Shown: piece by piece, positions 2-61,326 of the stretch
How positions within the stretch are numbered: the first letter of the stretch is position 1
Layout: each line of letters starts with the position of its first letter
DNA from: Marinobacterium lutimaris
GTDB taxonomy: Bacteria; Pseudomonadota; Gammaproteobacteria; Pseudomonadales; Balneatricaceae
Assembly (NCBI RefSeq): GCF_900108065.1
Contig: NZ_FNVQ01000003.1
Location: 372,001-436,000, forward strand
Direction: 5' to 3'
DNA: 64,000 nucleotides
The notes under the pieces: generated by a model
What the model was told of the DNA's origin: nothing
Databases searched by the model: none
The model's input: only the letters and a program-made list of their open reading frames with translations
Made by a program: the position numbers and the translations under genes

Positions 2-757
2 CCGCACTGGCACGATGATTATCTGATCGGCTACACCGAACAGGGCCTGCAGCAGTTCAGCTGTCGGCGCCAGGTCCAGCGCTCCACGCCGGGGAACATT
101 TTCCTTATCGAGCCGGGCGAACTGCACGACGGCGAAGCGCCGCAGCAGGATGGATTCACCTACCGCGCGCTCTACCTGCCCACCGACTGGCTGCACCGAC
201 AGTTGGCCGATATTTTTGAGGATCTTCCCGACCGCTTTGAGCTGCGCGTGGAGCAGACGCTGTGCGATGATCGCCGCCTGATGGCCAGCCTGGCCTCCGC
301 CTACATGGCGCTGAAGGAGGGAGAACCGCGCATGGTCCGCGACGCCTGCATCGATCAGCTGATGGAACGGATGACGGCCCACTTCAGTTGGCGTAAGCGC
401 CAGCGCGACGAACTGCTGCTACCCGGGCTGGCCCGACAGGGGCGCGATTTTCTGCATGCCCATCTGCACCAGGATATCGGCCTCGATGATCTGGCGCTGG
501 CGCTTAACTCCGACCGCTTCAAGATAAATCGAGCCTTCAAGGCCGCGTTTGGCGTTGCGCCTCACACCTACCTTCTGCAACTGCGGCTGATCAAAGCCCG
601 AGAGCTGCTTGCACGTGGCCGCCGCCCAGCCGAGGTGGCAGCTGATCTCTGTTTCTCCGACCAGAGCCACCTGGGGCGCTGGTTCAGACGCGCCTACAAA
701 CTGACGCCTGCGGCCTATCGCAGCCTGTGCACGGGCGTTCCAGACGGAGTTGGCTAA
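2..757 (+). CDS. AraC-family transcriptional regulator, 5' end outside window
   Basis: The reading frame is open from base 2, so the start lies upstream of the window. The visible N-terminal part is a cupin-like effector domain with motifs such as PHWHDDYLIGY and GELHDGEAP, typical of AraC regulators of the LysE-partner type. The C-terminal third carries two helix-turn-helix units, seen as DRFKINRAFKAAFG and FSDQSHLGRWFRRAYK, the normal AraC DNA-binding layout. It ends 41 bp before a LysE-type exporter on the same strand. This regulator-exporter pairing is common, so I infer that it controls export of an amino acid or similar small molecule. The ligand cannot be read from the sequence. A TTG at 203 is an internal codon, not the start. 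Confidence 0.88.
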   Translation, partial: PHWHDDYLIGYTEQGLQQFSCRRQVQRSTPGNIFLIEPGELHDGEAPQQDGFTYRALYLPTDWLHRQLADIFEDLPDRFELRVEQTLCDDRRLMASLASAYMALKEGEPRMVRDACIDQLMERMTAHFSWRKRQRDELLLPGLARQGRDFLHAHLHQDIGLDDLALALNSDRFKINRAFKAAFGVAPHTYLLQLRLIKARELLARGRRPAEVAADLCFSDQSHLGRWFRRAYKLTPAAYRSLCTGVPDGVG

Positions 758-798
758 TAGCGCGACACTAAGCGGGAACCACCTGATAAGGAATCCCG

Positions 799-1413
799 AT
801 GTCCGCGCTTGTTGTCAGTTTTTCCCTCTTTGCCTTTGTCGCCTCGGCCACGCCCGGCCCCACGAACCTGCTGGCCCTGAGTAACGGCAGCCGCTTTGGT
901 ACCCGCTCTACCCTGCCCTTCGCCTTCGGCGCATCGCTGGGTGCGGCCGCGGTGCTGCTGCTGACCGCCAGTGGATTGGGCCGGTTGATTCAGGAGTATC
1001 CCCTGCTACGGCTTTCACTGGCTCTTTGTGGCGTACTTTGGCTGACAAGCCTGGCCTGGAAGCTCTACCACGCCCCGGCCGTTCAGACAGACGACGGGAC
1101 CGAATGCGCCAGGGCCAGCTGGTATCACGGCGCGTTGATGCAGCCGGTCAATCCGAAAACCTGGATGATGGCGCTGACCGCTACCAGCCTGTTCGCACCG
1201 GTCGCTCCGTCCGGCTCGACGGCTCAGGGATTCACCCACGCTATGCTGATGGCGACGATCTTCTTTATCGTGACCCTGCCCTGCATCGCCGCTTGGGCCT
1301 GGCTGGGCGATGCCTGCGTCAGGCTGCTGAAAAGCGAGCAACGCCTGCAACTGCTCAATCGCGTATTGGCGGTGCTGCTCGGTGTGTCTGTCTGGTCGGC
1401 GCTATTACTCTGA
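799..1413 (+). CDS. LysE/RhtB-family amino-acid exporter
   Basis: This 204-residue integral membrane protein of the inner membrane probably has six transmembrane helices. Family marks are the early ATPGPTN motif (residues 17-23) and a central QPVNPKTWMM segment (about 115-124), both typical of LysE/RhtB exporters that expel amino acids or derivatives using the proton gradient. The start is an ATG preceded by TAAGGA at a good distance. It lies downstream of the AraC regulator and probably forms a unit with it. Its natural terminator seems to be the bidirectional hairpin at 1801-1832, from which it is now separated by a non-coding element. The substrate is unknown. Confidence 0.9.
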   Translation: MSALVVSFSLFAFVASATPGPTNLLALSNGSRFGTRSTLPFAFGASLGAAAVLLLTASGLGRLIQEYPLLRLSLALCGVLWLTSLAWKLYHAPAVQTDDGTECARASWYHGALMQPVNPKTWMMALTATSLFAPVAPSGSTAQGFTHAMLMATIFFIVTLPCIAAWAWLGDACVRLLKSEQRLQLLNRVLAVLLGVSVWSALLL

Positions 1414-1422
1414 AACGGCGAC

Positions 1423-1797
1423 TCAACTGGCATAAGCCACCCATAGTAATAATCCGCCTGTATGGCAGATGCTTTTGCATCTAGCTCCCTGTAAGGGAGC
1501 CTCGGCAAACCTTCCGACGAATTCAGGGATCGTCCATATCCGAGTCCTTTTTAAGGCCGGTTTCGGCTGCTGCCGAGCAAAGAGACTTGTGCGGCTTTCG
1601 TTGCTAAGTGAGTCCCTTTGCAATCCCAAACCGCCCCTAAGGCTTGGTCGGCTACGCCGACTTCCCTGCGCCAAAGGGGATAGATTGATCCGCTCAGATA
1701 ACTATGAGACATCGAGCCCCATTATCGCTGTGGCACGAAACAGGCCTAGCCTCGACTAAACGATCACCACCTCCATAGGAGGTGGTTTAAGAGCGAC
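1423..1797. mobile_element. Structured non-coding element, possible IS200/IS605-type remnant or MITE
   Basis: These 375 bp hold no convincing gene. They contain a series of foldbacks: AGATGC-tttt-GCATCT near 1478, GCTCCCT-gta-AGGGAGC near 1494, TCGGC-tgct-GCCGA near 1563, GTCGGC-tac-GCCGAC near 1648 and a 9-bp stem ACCACCTCC-ata-GGAGGTGGT at 1766-1786. The last resembles the sub-terminal hairpins of IS200/IS605 elements. GCGAC occurs just outside both suggested edges (1418-1422 and 1793-1797). Removing the segment would place the lysE stop about 13 bp before its terminator hairpin. What is seen is the hairpins, the repeat and the position; the transposon origin is inferred. A TnpB or IscB guide-RNA scaffold is one possibility that I could not confirm. 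Confidence 0.35.
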
Positions 1798-1800
1798 AAC

Positions 1801-1832
1801 AAAAAAGGGCCTGCATCTCTGCAGGCCCTTTT
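1801..1832. terminator. Bidirectional Rho-independent terminator
   Basis: An 11-bp perfect stem AAGGGCCTGCA / TGCAGGCCCTT with a TCTC loop is flanked by A-runs on the left and T-runs on the right, so it can stop transcription from both sides. It serves the leftward Tim44-domain gene ending at 1863 and, originally, the rightward lysE gene. Confidence 0.85.
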
Positions 1833-1862
1833 CTATTTGCCTAATTGGCGTAGCGGTTAAGC

Positions 1863-2795
1863 TTACTTGGGCTGTTCGATACCGACGATAAACCAGTCAG
1901 CGTTTTCGACGCTCATGTCACGGCTCAGGTGCCAGATTTCGCTGAACTCGGCGAGGCCGGACTGCTCATCTTCACGCAGCCAACCGTAGAAGTTGATCGA
2001 TACGATGACGTGATCTTTCTCGTCGATAAAGTTGATCAGGTCCGCCATCACAGAATCCACTTCGGTGGTCTGACGATCCGGGAAGCGACCGCGCTGGGCT
2101 TTCAGCTCTTCAAACAGCTCGGCGGTGGTGTAGCTTTTAAGCTCTTCCCAGTTGCACTCGTCCCAGGCTTTCTGCAGGCCGGTAAAGTGGCTGCAGGCCT
2201 GATCCAGGAACGCGCGCTTGTTAAACCATTCCGGCAGGTTCAGCTCCGGCTCCGCCAGAGAGGCACCAAAACCGCTATCAGCGACCGGCTCAGGCTGGCT
2301 GGCCTGAGGCTCTGCCTGGTGCTGCTGCCGAGCCTGGACCTGCGGCTCTTCCTGAGAAGAAGTGCGCCACTGCCCCATGTCGGGCTGGGGACCCGCCCCT
2401 GCATAGGCCTGCTGCTGTTGCTGCGCCTGACGACGGCCGGCAAACAGCTTGAACAGCACAAAGCCGATCACTGCGACGATCAGGATATCCATGATCTGGA
2501 TACCTTCGAAGGCGCCACCGAAGAAGAGAGCACCCAGCAGACCACCGGCCAACAGACCACCCATCAGGCCACCCATACCAGGGCGACGCTGGGTAGTACC
2601 GGGCTGCTGCGCGGTATTAGTAGTTTGCTGCGCATCCTGCTGCTTGTTGGCAGTAGGTGCCGGCGAAGTCTTTTTCGGCGCCGAGTAGGACTTGCCGAGA
2701 GAGAAGCCGCCGCCGAGACGTTTGGCGTGAGCATCGTCAACGGGCATAAGCACGCTGAGAAGAAAAGCAAAGAGACTGACTGTCAAAATCCGCAT
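1863..2795 (-). CDS. Tim44-like domain membrane protein
   Basis: A 310-residue protein with an N-terminal signal or anchor (about 1-24, ending DDAHA). A low-complexity region rich in Q, T, P and A follows, then a Gly-rich GMGGLMGGLLAGGLLGALFFGG segment leading into a second hydrophobic helix (about 100-120), a Gln-rich linker, and a C-terminal Tim44-like domain (about 185-310) with motifs such as WDECNWEELKSYTT and WHLSRD. Bacterial proteins of this type are widespread in Proteobacteria but have no firmly assigned function. In mitochondria the domain binds membranes and import machinery. The gene is monocistronic with its own terminator. The function is unknown; the domain call is fairly certain. 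Confidence 0.8.
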   Translation of the reverse strand: MRILTVSLFAFLLSVLMPVDDAHAKRLGGGFSLGKSYSAPKKTSPAPTANKQQDAQQTTNTAQQPGTTQRRPGMGGLMGGLLAGGLLGALFFGGAFEGIQIMDILIVAVIGFVLFKLFAGRRQAQQQQQAYAGAGPQPDMGQWRTSSQEEPQVQARQQHQAEPQASQPEPVADSGFGASLAEPELNLPEWFNKRAFLDQACSHFTGLQKAWDECNWEELKSYTTAELFEELKAQRGRFPDRQTTEVDSVMADLINFIDEKDHVIVSINFYGWLREDEQSGLAEFSEIWHLSRDMSVENADWFIVGIEQPK

Positions 2796-3765: not shown

Positions 3766-5459
3766 TTGGTGTCGCTCCCCTGCAGCCAGCGTTGCAGCCG
3801 GCTCTGAGTGGCATCGTTACCGGTCAGCACATAATGCAGGGTGTTGTAGTTGAAGGCGGTCCAGGCCATACGATCCAGCGCTCCCTTGCGACCGCAGAAC
3901 AGAATATCGTCACCGGGCTGCAGTTCGGTCAGCTCGCCGGGCAGCAGCTTCACCTCGTCACCGCGGCGCATCATCAACGGGAAGCAGTGCAATGTCTCTT
4001 TGCGGTAGTGAGGATTCTTCAGCAGTGCGATCAACTTTATTTCGGTTCCTTCCTGAAGTTTTTCCAGCACTGCGGGAGCTTCTTTCTCACCGACACAGAC
4101 AGAACGACTCTCCAGCGCCTCGTCTCCTACCGTCGCGTTCATGCGGTTAAGCAGCGTATGGGCCCAGACCTCGTCCTGCTGCATTAACTGATCGAGGAAC
4201 TCCGACAGCAGCGGTGTTTTAAGCTGCGCCATGATGCGGGTGGCGATAATCTGCCCCGGCTGCATTATGAAATCGCAGCGGGAGTTTTCAAACACCAGGT
4301 CGTTGGCGCTCAGGTTTTGGCGCACCACGGTGATCAGCTTCGGGTTGAGCTCACGGGCGGTCATGATGATCGACAGGTTGTCAGCGTCATTGGCGGTGCC
4401 TGCCACTATACCCACTGCGTCTTCGACGCCCGCCTGCTGCAGGGTCACCGCCTCGGTGCCGACACCGAGCACCGCGCCCGGCAGATCACGGATATTCTTC
4501 GGATCCGGGTCGATAATAGTGACCTCGGTCTCTTCCTGCTTCAGCTCGCGGCTGATGTTGCTGCCGAAACGGCCAAAGCCGCAGATAATCCAGCGCCCCT
4601 TGGCATGGCGATAGACGCTGGCCAGGTTGCGATGTTCCGGGTTCATCAGCCAGTCAAACACCAGGTGCCGGTGCGGGCTATGAGCCGCCAGCGCCACGTA
4701 TTCAGCGTAGGCACGGAAGGGGTCGACAATCAGATCGGTGCCAAAGGAAGCCAGGTTGGCGGTGGTGATATCGTTTTCAGAGCGGCTGATCGCCAGCCGC
4801 TTCGGCTTGAGCACCTTGCTGGCGATAGAGATCGCCAGGTTGACCTTGTCGCTGTTGGTCAGCGCCAGCACCCCGGCGCAGTTCGGCAACTGCAGGCCGG
4901 CGTGATCGAGAATATCCGGCAGCGAGGCATCGCCACAAAGCGCCGGCACCGGAATCCGCAGACCATCCAGCTCCAGTTCATCAACGCGGTCCTGATCAAT
5001 ATCCACCACGACCACGCGTACGTTGCGCTCGGTCAGCTCGCGGGCCAGGTTGGAGCCGGTAACGCCATAGCCGCAGATCAGGTAGAAGGGTTCGGTCAGA
5101 CTACGTACGTGGTTTACGAACCGGCGTAGCCGCAGCAACCGGGTAAAGCCGGAGTCCTGGAACACCGCCAGCGTGGTACCTATACCGTAGAGCCAGGCCA
5201 CCACGCAGGCGTAGATGGTGCAAAGCGTCCACATCCGCTGGGCATCGTTAAAGGCGTAGGGGATCTCGCCAAAGCCGATGGTAGAGCCCATGAACGAGAC
5301 GAAGTAGAAGGCGTGGAAGTAGCTCATGTGCCAGACGTTGCCCTGATCGTCCTGGCCGGGGATCAGGATAAAACCGAGTATCGACACCGCATAGACCACG
5401 ATCAACGTGATCAGCGGCGCCCTCAGCCGTCTCAGCAGCACATAGAGGATATCGTACAT
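3762..5459 (-). CDS. Two-TM potassium channel with two RCK/TrkA-N NAD-binding domains
   Basis: A 565-residue protein. TM1 is at about 15-34. A pore loop follows with selectivity filter TIGFG (60-64), then TM2 at about 75-98. Two cytoplasmic Rossmann-type RCK domains start at YLICGYGVTGSNLAREL (about 126) and WIICGFGRFGSNISREL (about 293), and a TrkA-C-like region (about 470-545) closes the protein. This is the plan of ligand-gated potassium channels related to Kch and MthK, in which the RCK ring gates the pore. The filter has Ile and Phe in place of the classical TVGYG; Phe at the Tyr position also occurs in other bacterial channels. It lies in an operon with a small four-helix protein (7 bp upstream) and an EamA transporter. 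Confidence 0.88.
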   Translation of the reverse strand: MYDILYVLLRRLRAPLITLIVVYAVSILGFILIPGQDDQGNVWHMSYFHAFYFVSFMGSTIGFGEIPYAFNDAQRMWTLCTIYACVVAWLYGIGTTLAVFQDSGFTRLLRLRRFVNHVRSLTEPFYLICGYGVTGSNLARELTERNVRVVVVDIDQDRVDELELDGLRIPVPALCGDASLPDILDHAGLQLPNCAGVLALTNSDKVNLAISIASKVLKPKRLAISRSENDITTANLASFGTDLIVDPFRAYAEYVALAAHSPHRHLVFDWLMNPEHRNLASVYRHAKGRWIICGFGRFGSNISRELKQEETEVTIIDPDPKNIRDLPGAVLGVGTEAVTLQQAGVEDAVGIVAGTANDADNLSIIMTARELNPKLITVVRQNLSANDLVFENSRCDFIMQPGQIIATRIMAQLKTPLLSEFLDQLMQQDEVWAHTLLNRMNATVGDEALESRSVCVGEKEAPAVLEKLQEGTEIKLIALLKNPHYRKETLHCFPLMMRRGDEVKLLPGELTELQPGDDILFCGRKGALDRMAWTAFNYNTLHYVLTGNDATQSRLQRWLQGSDTK

Positions 5460-6016: not shown

Positions 6017-8857
6017 ATGCATTTCAGGCGAGCTGCCCAAGGCTTCAGTGCCCTTCTTCTGCTTTTTGTGTTCGCCAGCGTTGCCCGCGCAGCGCTGATT
6101 CAGAGCCCAAACGACCAGCGTCAGTACGAAAACTTCTCGCTGGATAACGGCCTTGAGGTGGTGGTGATATCAGACCCGACCACGGACAAGGCCGCCGCCT
6201 CCATGAACGTACTCGCCGGTAGCGCCGACAACCCGGAAGAACGACCCGGCCTGGCTCACTTTCTGGAACACATGCTGTTCCTGGGTACCGAAAAGTACCC
6301 GGAATCCGGCGCCTACCAGGAGTTCATCAGCGCCAACGGCGGCAGCCACAACGCTTACACCGCCTACGACAACACCAACTACTTCTTCGACGTTAAGGCC
6401 GACGCCCTCTCCGGAGCCCTGGATCGTTTCTCCCAGTTTTTCATCGCCCCCCTGTTCACCCCCGAACTGGTGGACCGGGAGCGTCACGCAGTGCACTCGG
6501 AATTCAAATCCCAGCTGCAGGACGATGGCCGCCGCCTCTACTCCGCCAGCAAGCTACCGATGAACCCTGAGCATCCGTTCAGCCGTTTCTTCGTCGGTAA
6601 CCTGGACACACTGGCGGACCGCCCCAACTCCGATGTTCGCGATGAGCTGATCAAGTTTTACGAAAGCCACTACTCTGCCAACCTGATGGATCTGGTGGTG
6701 ATCGGGCGTCAGTCCACCGCCGAGCTGCGCGCCATGGTAGAGCAGTACTTCAACGCCATTCCCAACCGCAAGCTTGAACACACGCCCTCCACCGAGCCGC
6801 TTTACAAGCCGGAGCAGTTGCCGGTGCAGCTGGATGTGGTCACCAAGATGGACACCCGCCAGCTGAGCCTGCGCTTCCCGGTACCTGCCATGCGCGACCA
6901 CTGGCGCGAAAAACCGCTCTATTACATCGCCAGCATGATCGGCTACGAGGGCAAAGGCAGCCTGCTGAGCCTGCTGAAGGAGAAAGGCTGGGCACGCGGC
7001 CTCGGCGCCTCTCCCGGCATGGATCTGGCCAACCAGGCCAGCTTTGATGTGGGTATCGAACTGACCCAGTCCGGTCTTGAACACTACGACCAGGTAGTCG
7101 AGCTGTTCTTTGCCTTTGTGGAAAAATTCAAGGCGGAAGGCGTGCGCGAAGATCTTTACGACGAGGAAGCACAACTGGCCGCCACCGACTTCCGTTTCCA
7201 TGAGTCCGGTGAGCCGGTGCATGAAGCGATGCAGTTAGCCGCCAGAATGCCGGATTACCCGGTTGAGAACCTGCTCGATGGCCCCTACCTTTACGATCGT
7301 TTCGACGCTGACCTGATCCAGAGTTACCTGGACAAGCTGACGCCGGAAAATATGATCCTGACCCTGGCGGCTCCCGATCTGAAAACCGACAGCAAGACCG
7401 AGCGCTACGGCATTGAGTACAGCCTCGGCAAGCCAGACAGCAACGCCGAGCGCGGCTGGGACAATCCCCAGGCCGATGATGCTCTGGCGGTGCGCAGCCT
7501 CAACCCCTACGTGGCAAAGGATCTCAGCCTGATCCAGCCCGAGGGCGAGCCAAGCGAGACACCGGAAGCACTCTGGCAAGCCAAGGGCGCCAAGCTCTGG
7601 TTCCTGCAGGATCTGAGCTTCAATGTCCCCCGCGCCAATCTCTACTTTACGTTCATCTCGGAGACCGCCAACGACAGCGCCCGACACGCGGTGCTGAACA
7701 CCCTGTTCGCGCGGATGCTGGATGACCGCATGAACGAGGACTTTTACGACGCCAGTCTCGCAGGACTGTCTGCATCGATCTACCCGCACATGCGCGGTTT
7801 CGGCATCCGTATCTCAGGCTACAACCAGCGCCAGCCGGTACTGCTGGACAGCATTCTCGATGAAATCAAGCAGCAGCCGGAGTCCGAGAGCCGCTTCCGT
7901 CGCATCAAGAACGCGCTGACCGAAGAGCTGGAAAACGCCGACAAGGACAAGCCCTACAACCAGACTTTCAGCGCGCTTTACACCGCGCTGATGCCGCAGT
8001 GGTCCGAGCAGCAGAAGCTGGATGCCCTGGCATCGATCTCCCTTAAAGACCTGCAGGAGTACCTGCCCGAACTGTTCTCCGGCCTCTACCTGCGCAGTTT
8101 TGCCCACGGCAACATCAGCAGCGTCAGTGCCCGCCAGATGGCCAGCAAGGTTTACGAATCCCTGGTAGCGAAAGACCCGGCCGAGGAAGCCGCACAGCTG
8201 CCGGTGGTCCAGCTGCCGGCGGGCAAACGCCTATATGACACCCTCGATATCGAACACAACGACTCGGCCCTGACGCTCTACATGCAGGGTAACAGCACTG
8301 CTATCAAGGCCCGCGCCGAGGTCGCCCTGCTGAACGAGATCATGCAGACGCCGTTTTACTCAAGCCTGCGTACCGAGCAGCAACTGGGCTATATCGTATT
8401 TTCGACCCCGCTGCCGATGCAGGATGTTCCGGGAATTGCCCTGGTCGTGCAGTCTCCGGTGGCCGACCCTGACAAACTGGAAGCCGCCTACGACGAGTTT
8501 CTGGAAGGGATGTCTGAACGCCTCAGCACAATCACCGAGGAGGAGCTTGCAGCGTTCAAGCAGAGCTTGATTTCACGTATCAACCAAAGCGATAAAACGC
8601 TGAAGAATCGCTCTGCCCGCCTCTGGCGAGAGCTGGACCGGGAAAACCCTGACTTCAACACCCGCGAAGCACTGACCGCCGCGACACTGCAGATCACGCC
8701 GGATTCACTGGCGGCACGACTGAGCGAGCTGCGTACGCGCCAGCTGGCGCTGCGCAGCTACGGCGGCGACAACGAGCCGGGTTCCAGGGATGACAAGGCG
8801 CTGCTGAATGCGCTGAAAGAGGATAAGCAGTTTGTACCGGGAACGGCGGCGCCTTGA
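6017..8857 (+). CDS. ptrA: Pitrilysin-type (M16) periplasmic protease
   Basis: A 946-residue insulinase-family zinc metallopeptidase. The inverted zinc motif HFLEHMLF (HxxEH) and the downstream glutamate region HAVHSEFKSQ are present in the N-terminal domain. Three further non-catalytic M16 domains follow, matching the four-domain layout of E. coli protease III (about 960 residues). I chose the ATG at 6017 over an upstream TTG at 5981. It has a Shine-Dalgarno AGGA six bases ahead and gives a clean signal peptide MHFRRAAQGFSALLLLFVFA... cleaved near ARA-ALI. It should act in the periplasm, degrading small polypeptides. It is transcribed alone and converges on the sbcB side. Confidence 0.92.
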   Translation: MHFRRAAQGFSALLLLFVFASVARAALIQSPNDQRQYENFSLDNGLEVVVISDPTTDKAAASMNVLAGSADNPEERPGLAHFLEHMLFLGTEKYPESGAYQEFISANGGSHNAYTAYDNTNYFFDVKADALSGALDRFSQFFIAPLFTPELVDRERHAVHSEFKSQLQDDGRRLYSASKLPMNPEHPFSRFFVGNLDTLADRPNSDVRDELIKFYESHYSANLMDLVVIGRQSTAELRAMVEQYFNAIPNRKLEHTPSTEPLYKPEQLPVQLDVVTKMDTRQLSLRFPVPAMRDHWREKPLYYIASMIGYEGKGSLLSLLKEKGWARGLGASPGMDLANQASFDVGIELTQSGLEHYDQVVELFFAFVEKFKAEGVREDLYDEEAQLAATDFRFHESGEPVHEAMQLAARMPDYPVENLLDGPYLYDRFDADLIQSYLDKLTPENMILTLAAPDLKTDSKTERYGIEYSLGKPDSNAERGWDNPQADDALAVRSLNPYVAKDLSLIQPEGEPSETPEALWQAKGAKLWFLQDLSFNVPRANLYFTFISETANDSARHAVLNTLFARMLDDRMNEDFYDASLAGLSASIYPHMRGFGIRISGYNQRQPVLLDSILDEIKQQPESESRFRRIKNALTEELENADKDKPYNQTFSALYTALMPQWSEQQKLDALASISLKDLQEYLPELFSGLYLRSFAHGNISSVSARQMASKVYESLVAKDPAEEAAQLPVVQLPAGKRLYDTLDIEHNDSALTLYMQGNSTAIKARAEVALLNEIMQTPFYSSLRTEQQLGYIVFSTPLPMQDVPGIALVVQSPVADPDKLEAAYDEFLEGMSERLSTITEEELAAFKQSLISRINQSDKTLKNRSARLWRELDRENPDFNTREALTAATLQITPDSLAARLSELRTRQLALRSYGGDNEPGSRDDKALLNALKEDKQFVPGTAAP

Positions 8858-25839: not shown

Positions 25840-26471
25840 TCAAATATCTATCGCCTCTTCAATCTGTTTGCGAAATCGCACACGGCTAAAAACATACCGT
25901 TTTTTCACGGCAAGCCGAAGCTCATCATTCAGCCCTGTGCCAAATCGTACTGAAGTGATTCTCGATAGGGTTGCTGGCGTGTTTCCAGGCAAAAAGACAC
26001 TTCATAGTTCTGTTTTCGGTTCCCTACAGCCCTAGGTGAATTGTTGAGATAACTGGACCAACAATACTCTGCCGGATACACAACCATAGAGGCTCCCTCA
26101 GTGTTTAACTCGATATATCGATAGCACGCCAGAAGATAGCCATCCTTCACCACAAGAGAGGATTTAAAACGCCTACCCCCAAGGGTGCAGCTGCGCCGAT
26201 AGAGCCGATTGATTCTTTGCACATAGCACTGCCCCAGCTGCTGCATCAATGCAGGCAAAGTAGCAGCAACCCTGGATAAAACTAGCAGGTGGTAATGGTT
26301 GGTCATGAAGCAGTATGCATGCAACCGAATATTCAGCGCAGTGCAGAGTTCGTGCAAAACTATCCACATAACTGGCGTAGTCATCATCCGCTAAAAAACG
26401 CTGCAATTGTTTCCGCGATGAATGATGTACACCAGGCAATGGCTCTGCAGAACACGAGGTTTTCTAGACAT
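25840..26471 (-). pseudogene. Decayed REP-associated tyrosine transposase (RAYT, Y1_Tnp)
   Basis: The intact parts read MSRKPRVLQSHCLVYIIHRGNN (in short: CLVYIIHRGNN), then FLADDDYASYVD, then HAYCFMTNHYHLLV, GGRRFKSSLVVKDGYLLACYRYIELN, and finally NDELRLAVKKRY...RVRFRKQIEEAI. This is the normal order of a RAYT with its HUH-like MTNHxHLL motif and the catalytic Tyr region YRYIELN. The pieces lie in different frames, with shifts near 26420, 26375 and 25930, so no full protein can be made. The longest open piece (25929-26387) is only the C-terminal two thirds. RAYTs mobilise REP sequences, and two REP-like pairs lie in this window. Confidence 0.8.
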
Positions 26472-60843: not shown

Positions 60844-60970
60844 GACAACCTCCTGCGAACACCTTAGATCAGTCTAGCAAAAGAGATAGTCGAGACTAGC
60901 CTCAGAACCTTGCGAATGAGAAGGTCTCAAGAAGGGTCGAGGTAATAGAAGTATAAAACGGAAGGGAGAA

Positions 60971-61326
60971 GTGGGAGTCAGCCGATAAGCCGGGTTTTGT
61001 CGTGGACAATCATTCATCTAGGGTCTGCGTCACCACAGACCTCAAGCAACCTACCCGGACCCGGCGCGGGCCACGCCTTAAGGGTCCCTATTTGGTCTTG
61101 CTCCGAGTGGGGTTTACCATGCCGTGGAATGTTGCCACCCACGCGGTGCGCTCTTACCGCACCATTTCAACCTTACCGGCAACCCTAAAGCTGCTTAGGC
61201 GGTATATTTTCTGTTGCACTTGCCGTCGACTTTCGTCGCCCAGACGTTATCTGGCACCCTGCCCTGCGGAGCCCGGACTTTCCTCCCCTGCGCGAACGCA
61301 GCAGCGATTGCCTGGCTGACTCCCGC
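60971..61326 (-). ncRNA. rnpB: RNase P RNA, bacterial type A
   Basis: About 356 nt on the minus strand. The ends pair perfectly over 11 bp (GGGAGTCAGCC at 61324-61314 with GGCTGACTCCC at 60983-60973), forming P1. Conserved blocks are clear: GAGGAAAGTCCGGGCTCC, GGGCAGGGTGCCAG, GTGCAACAGAAA, GGTAAG...GTGCGGTAAGAGCGCACC, GAGCAAGACCAAATAGGG, GGGTAGGTTGCTTGAGG and TAGATGAATGATTGTCCACG. This is the catalytic RNA that matures tRNA 5' ends. The region matching the L15 loop reads AAGGCGUGG; in E. coli, as I recall, it is AAGGUACGG. Ends are estimated to within a few bases. Confidence 0.96.

Follow-up and report, generated by a model that had tools for sequence, protein, structure and literature searches.

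The window analysed here is a 64,000-nucleotide stretch of DNA from Marinobacterium lutimaris (genome G000). Near its beginning, a non-coding, fold-rich stretch lies between a lysE-type translocator gene (799-1413) and a terminator hairpin formed by an inverted repeat (1801-1837). An earlier note on this DNA had seen this arrangement correctly, whereas its edges (1423-1797), the GCGAC motif it reported at both of them and its distance to lysE did not hold. The element is 353 bp long and reads on the minus strand, with its left end at 1798 (TGTCGCTC...) and its right end at 1446 (...ATTATTAC); these limits derive from the empty sites of two other copies (L106 against L022, L227 against L006) and from the alignment of the right ends of relatives, beyond which the DNA is variable. 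GCGAC falls inside the element at 1793-1797 and in flanking DNA at 1418-1422, a chance repetition, and removal of the element would leave the lysE stop 34 nt from the A/T tract of the terminator instead of about 13 bp from the terminator. The 9-bp stem noted near the right edge does exist and is the left-end hairpin ACCACCTCC/GGAGGTGGT. The terminator hairpin, taken in the same note as that of lysE, is likewise present, but its relevant T-tract is on the minus strand, downstream of a Tim44-domain gene. The features of the locus are as follows.

799-1413, plus strand: lysE-type translocator gene (PF01810), neighbour of the element.
1446-1798, minus strand: whole non-autonomous IS200-type element, 353 bp, its ends compared with those of the plasmid IS200 elements L021 and L022.
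1446-1489, minus strand: right end, a degenerate terminal hairpin with the ATTATTAC tail (alignment with the right ends of relatives).
1484-1500, minus strand: right-end hairpin GCTCCCT/AGGGAGC, like the hairpin after tnpA in L021 and L022 (by eye; folding).
1556-1697, minus strand: truncated copy of the structured arm, an inner repeat (covariance model R1, 106.3 bits, E 1.8e-32).
1666-1671, minus strand: GCGCAG junction at which the arm has lost about 91 bp with its long first hairpin (intact ortholog in G003; same junction at a different G003 site).
1766-1786, minus strand: left-end subterminal hairpin ACCACCTCC-TAT-GGAGGTGGT (sequence, folding).
1799-1800, minus strand: target flank GT, 3' of the T-tract and just before the left end (empty-site comparison, other copies).
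1801-1837, minus strand: intrinsic-terminator hairpin with T-tract, the insertion target (inverted repeat; target pattern in relatives).
1863-2795, minus strand: Tim44-domain gene (PF04280), whose downstream terminator is the target.

Folded as single-stranded DNA, positions 1446-1798 scored z = -5.06 for the minus and z = -3.95 for the plus strand, and for neither did any of 100 shuffles reach as good a fold. The element is too short for a transposase and contains no tnpA. In genome G003 it also lies behind the orthologous Tim44-domain gene. The hairpin at 1801-1837 carries A/T tracts on both sides and was not among the calls of a simple terminator scan, perhaps because these tracts were counted as stem; since the scan missed it, the target statistics given below were obtained with purpose-written scripts.

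Several observations tie the element to the IS200 group. On the minus strand it consists of the left end TGTCGCTCTTAA with the hairpin ACCACCTCC/GGAGGTGGT, and a right end made of the GGGAGC hairpin and then a hairpin with ATTATTAC. This is the anatomy of the tnpA-bearing plasmid elements L021 and L022, except that about 250 bp of other DNA stands in place of their tnpA. The left-end hairpin, or variants of it, also occurs in the left ends of other copies. By BLASTN, positions 1740-1800 show an 88.5% match to Photobacterium plasmids, and a 51-bp part of them a 92.2% match to an Edwardsiella plasmid, with the plasmid matches lying just upstream of annotated IS200/IS605 tnpA genes; the right ends of the window element and of the tnpA-bearing elements also align (local alignment and by eye). 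The kinship of both ends with autonomous ends supports a non-autonomous IS200-type element, much as the earlier note had proposed in suggesting an IS200/IS605 derivative with foldback ends and no target duplication: besides the IS200-like ends there are other copies and two empty sites, one for an autonomous relative and one for a sister copy. That autonomous relative is an intact IS200 copy on an Edwardsiella IncC plasmid (L022 3492-3941, minus strand), which sits behind a hairpin and T-tract and adjoins a ParA-family gene, with sul2 and floR near.

The further copies and empty sites that the earlier note had hoped to find by blastn in this genome and its relatives do exist. With a 401-bp query (window 1400-1800) and places less than 700 bp apart merged, the own genome holds at least 49 matching places, and at least 34 clusters of related sequence at E <= 0.001 with the window copy counted; 40 of 45 first-look candidates were scored. 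Copies within one genome diverge directly after ...TTTTTAC, so that the right end is set at this point and the left end at TGTC. On the IncC plasmids, the empty L106 reads TTTTTTTGTTTAAAG and the occupied L022 reads TTTTTTTGTTGTC...GGATTTTTACTTAAAG, without duplication and with one ambiguous base. When G003 and G001 were searched with the flanks of 12 sites, one clear chromosomal empty site emerged, L227 in G003, the closest relative, for the sister copy L006, again without target duplication; at the L007 site in G003, 67 nt are unaligned between the flanks. The site in the window has no clean empty counterpart among these genomes: it is occupied by the same insertion in G003, and in G001, G002, G004, G005 and G006 the lysE side is not conserved, the terminator behind the Tim44 gene being unoccupied in G002. 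BLASTN of the element against phages gave no match. A Y1 search of the own genome found no tnpA of the element's group; its only Y1 match is a truncated gene (window 25929-26387, minus strand, PF01797, 29 bits, 152 aa) that had no tblastn match with IS200 TnpA. Because no transposase of its group was found there, the element family is probably inactive in this genome unless helped.

A marked pattern among the relatives concerns the DNA into which these elements insert. Among the best 80 of 222 tnpA loci, of which 73 were usable and 7 were dropped for short upstream DNA, a hairpin and T-tract stands directly before the left end in 58 of 73, as compared with 117 of 7904 control positions drawn from both strands of the flanks, coding DNA included. 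Runs of at least four T residues carry a stem in 54 of 63 cases at left ends and in 176 of 1875 elsewhere (Fisher p 2.5e-43), and the proportion elsewhere in the flanks is 17 of 147 when the run is followed by GTT or ATT. The upstream stems differ among copies of one genome, with a hairpin and T-tract before most left ends, so the stems belong to the target and not to the element. In a second set, defined by a left-end score of at least 41, with L059 left out as a duplicate, one autonomous element included (L085 = L132) and two sites, L001/L066 and L003/L084, each entered for two species, terminators precede 15 of 18 left ends, the misses being L004, L008 and L019. The strict test thus fails at 15 of the 73 tnpA loci and, in the second set, at 3 of 18; by eye, L131 and L176 among the misses are terminator-like and L137 and L192 are not, and L163, whose left end escaped detection (score 14), is counted among the 15. 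We regard the preference for a hairpin and T-tract as a solid result. A literature search by title and abstract opening, with subscription journals mostly outside its coverage, returned no description of IS200 targeting of terminators.

The right end of the element is also a hairpin with a T-rich tail, and from this likeness in shape we infer that the transposase could mistake terminators for the element's own right end. The spacing is compatible with such a model. Under a slightly different stem rule, which finds a stem in 59 of the 73 loci and 14 of the 18 in the second set, the stem base lies 8 nt from the cleavage position in 24 and 7-9 nt from it in 43 of the 59 stem-bearing loci (5 nt in two, 6 in eight, 7 in 15, 9 in four, 10 in five and 13 in one). 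The distance from right-end hairpin to element end, taken by text pattern in 70 loci, is 7 nt in four, 8 in 40, 9 in 24 and 10 in two. This match, at a commonest value of 8 nt, lends the decoy model little weight because uninserted terminators are spaced alike: the 7-9 nt class makes up 21 of 39 uninserted T-runs with a stem that are followed by [GA]T (p 0.08 against the 43 of 59 at insertions) and 75 of 142 of all T-runs with a stem (p 0.012 in the same comparison).

The core of the element is a separate repeat, hereafter the arm, of about 220 nt and eight helices, as defined by aligned copies without clear IS200 ends; in two of these copies, L026 and L030, what looks by eye like degraded left-end sequence remains. 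When 22 copies, drawn from three species, are aligned, standard pairs fill 98.8% of pair cells and 20 of 57 pairs are changed on both sides, counts that are inflated by the relatedness of the copies; none of 500 shuffles was as high on either measure. Covariation scored 0.264, as compared with 0.092 in shuffles; of five measures, four were matched in none of the 500 shuffles and one in a single shuffle, and sliding the partners abolished the signal. On the strength of the slid controls and of how many double changes there are, we argue that the arm structure is real, whether in RNA or in single-stranded DNA. At the GCGCAG repeat the window copy is shorter by about 91 bp, and the long first hairpin is among the DNA lost. 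In G003 the copy at the same site is intact and the copy at the L003 site has exactly the same deletion, so the loss either occurred twice or was copied between sites. In nine printed copies the arm has one orientation relative to the visible ends, which suggests a single capture of the arm that was then followed by spread.

With the covariance model, the arm is detected in 42 of 116 genomes of the family and in nine of its 16 genera (7 of 8 genomes of the own genus, 35 of 108 of the rest), a spread visible only with that model. An exact 17-mer of the arm did not occur in any of the other 193 genomes sampled across the order (none is listed as the same genus), a longer pattern was absent from viral contigs, and a diverged arm used as query had no match in plasmids or phages. 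A literature search with sequence strings and with defence-cassette wording, with subscription journals mostly outside its coverage, gave no match for the arms. Nor does Rfam contain a family that matches the element at gathering score, and in E-value mode the matches are only at or beside the terminator hairpin. At nine loci with fuller copies, Rfam searches up to E = 1 leave the arm without a match, and two sub-threshold matches both fall in the flanking DNA of one locus. The orphan guide RNA that the earlier note had entertained, and had meant to check against Rfam, is thus not supported by these searches. Elsewhere in the window, Bacterial RNase P class A RNA (60970-61323, minus strand) is the only Rfam match at gathering score.

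The arm also recurs outside the element as inverted pairs with either little between them or 0.7-3.5 kb of cargo. Among the 150 arm matches listed there are at least 23 neighbouring pairs less than 5 kb apart, 16 of them (-)(+), two (+)(-) and five on the same strand; the excess of (-)(+) over (+)(-) among these matches has p 0.0013. Gaps within the 16 listed (-)(+) pairs are 22-102 nt in eight and 698-1914 nt in the other eight. Further (-)(+) pairs were found, four with cargo (in G000, G003, G002 and G006) and two without (L262, L271). One such locus follows an M20-peptidase gene at a distance of 53-64 nt, and the inverted arm pair found there in three species encloses three different cargos. 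G000 has three genes there, with weak P-loop matches, a membrane-like protein (by eye) and a sub-cut-off match to Mrr_cat; G001 has a LEM-3-like GIY-YIG gene (L079 1346-1942, minus strand, PF22945; PADLOC PD-T4-3, 6.8e-14); and G003 has a retron-type RT-trypsin fusion (L224 8552-10432, minus strand; PADLOC RT-Protease_XI, 8.3e-188). G007 has the peptidase gene and no arm at that locus. Other cargos encode PIN7/NYN, DUF4238, DUF6119/TIGR04141 and DUF6731 proteins, two BRCT proteins with weak PDC-S48 matches and an HNH protein (L258) with weak matches to Zorya and IscB models; at two cargo loci the main gene has no match over the cut-off. Strong matches to defence models occur at two of 12 cargo loci, as a raw count, and no transposase family matched among the main cargo ORFs scanned.

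Two stretches are worth recording beside these loci. In L207, arms at 755-972 (minus strand) and 4462-4683 (plus strand), with further arms at 6410-6644 and 7981-8202 (both plus strand), enclose three cargo genes first and, further on, a gene for an acetamidase/formamidase as well as an ORF that by eye resembles an aldo/keto reductase; the corresponding stretch between arms in G003 is without these last two. L256 and L257 hold related BRCT-domain cargo in two species of another genus of the family (g15), with very similar arm ends.

Potential mobilisers of the arm were also considered. The arm was found near none of 27 Y1 loci in the fetched flanks, which come from 14 of the 22 arm-bearing genomes searched, and the other eight had no Y1 match at all; with none of the 27 loci carrying the arm, a RAYT partner was rejected. 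The GIY-YIG gene was rejected as a dedicated mobiliser, being present in one of eight genomes of the genus. The genes inside an inverted pair of elements on contig C11 are, by eye, TPR- and EAL-like and were not accepted as cargo. Between G000 and G003, the arm is opposite between conserved flanks at three of five sites (L026/L232, L032/L233, L034/L230) and colinear at L038 and L044; the opposite orientations would fit an inverted dimer in the ancestor, with a different one of its arms retained in each species. It is possible, and we put this forward tentatively, at somewhat below an even chance, that the arm represents an undescribed class of cassette, in which inverted arms of about 220 nt with their 5' ends inward enclose one to three accessory genes, some of them antiviral, and no transposase. 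Such cassettes could pass between species at fixed loci, moved by some single-strand-recognising enzyme, and one arm could have been captured by a terminator-seeking IS200 derivative and spread with it to safe sites.

For the window element itself, we consider it likely that a transposase-less IS200 element, moved in trans, landed 3' of the T-tract of a terminator that served as a decoy right end, with the arm as its passenger. In IS200/IS605 chemistry, excision and insertion proceed as single-stranded DNA. A Y1 transposase (TnpA) acting in trans would have excised and inserted the element in this form, immediately on the 3' side of an intrinsic terminator's T-tract. TnpA would normally cut about 8 nt 3' of the T-tailed hairpin at its own right end (a hairpin and [A/T]TTTTTAC), and the terminator (a hairpin and TTTTTT[G/A]T), having the same shape, could act as a decoy for it. 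Insertion behind the T-tract would spare both the terminator and the genes. In place of tnpA, the element carries a single arm of about 220 nt from the second structured repeat family, which would have spread as a passenger, and in the window copy the long hairpin of the arm was later deleted between short direct repeats.

The same distribution could arise by selection if insertion were random among T-rich sites and insertions outside terminators were harmful and lost. In favour of this explanation, an insertion at a terminator falls in a safe intergenic place, the target sequences used by IS200/IS605 elements are short, insertions and uninserted terminators cannot be clearly told apart by their spacing, and the control positions mix coding and intergenic DNA. 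We nevertheless think it unlikely, considering how seldom T-runs elsewhere carry a stem, including those followed by GTT or ATT, as compared with the left ends; selection for intergenic sites alone would be expected to leave many insertions at stemless intergenic T-runs too.

Two further explanations would place the function in RNA. The strong compensatory change in the core and its wide occurrence in the family are what would be expected of a structured non-coding RNA gene, or a 3'-UTR element with a cellular role, on which the IS200-like ends were incidental, but the same ends are found on tnpA-bearing IS200 elements, occupancy of the sites differs among relatives, no Rfam family is matched at gathering score and the window copy has lost one long helix, making such a gene very improbable. 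A guide RNA for IscB or TnpB (omega RNA, reRNA or HEARO) as a remnant of an IS605-type element would account for ends related to IS200/IS605, and the arm-bracketed HNH cargo protein L258 matches the NCBIfam IscB model weakly (18.8 bits, where the cut-off is 175). We find this scarcely credible, in view of the missing Rfam match and the fact that L021 and L022 hold only tnpA between their ends. The single TnpB match in the genome (PF07282, a 353-aa open frame at G000:C16:70910-71125) is on another contig, and no TnpB gene adjoins the element, whose neighbours are lysE and the Tim44-domain gene.

If the preferred reading is correct and an IS200 TnpA reads terminators as its own right end, this would provide a simple structural rule for the target choice of a minimal transposase and would explain how such elements multiply without breaking genes. 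The arm family is a covarying element in more than a third of the genomes of its family, and it is found repeatedly around accessory genes with no recognisable transposase. If the arm pairs are indeed cassettes, they would point to an unrecognised route of exchange for small defence systems, given the two cargos with strong matches to antiviral models.

Among known systems, the window element is closest to the IS200 group, which has only the Y1 TnpA, and shares with it the subterminal hairpins, the lack of target duplication and a left end placed 3' of the target; it differs in having no tnpA, a hairpin and T-tract as target and a foreign structured arm. Group IIC introns also insert at intrinsic terminators but are retroelements of unrelated chemistry. 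The partner TnpA belongs to PF01797 and has sequence relatives among the solved Y1 transposases, such as that of ISHp608; recognition by TnpA of guide and hairpin, with guide tetranucleotides that pair with cleavage sites, has been described in the family (PMC6006769). The PATEs of Haloquadratum, as described in PMC3119063, are transposase-free, IS605-related elements with near-terminal palindromes and no duplications, which undergo repeat-mediated core deletions and have other small repeats inserted inside them. The window element has all of these traits in common with the PATEs, but it is a gammaproteobacterial IS200 derivative with a terminator target and a conserved 220-nt passenger, whereas PATEs are haloarchaeal. 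For the arms, the nearest counterparts in PMC3733652 are the TIRtrons and TIR families, which are likewise moderately abundant repeats also found as inverted pairs around RAYT-like genes, although the arm pairs examined enclose other genes and not a Y1 transposase. The inverted dimers and singletons of foldback DNA also recall REPINs and BIMEs (for dimers, PMC3733652), but REPs are palindromes of 20-40 bp tagged with GTAG or CGTC and a REPIN is built on a short hairpin, unlike arms of about 220 nt with several covarying helices and dimers that may hold genes. Non-autonomous IS605-type elements (PMC3119063) and inverted repeats around Y1 genes (PMC3733652) are already known, and we rate the arm cassettes as a more novel case than the IS200-type element itself.
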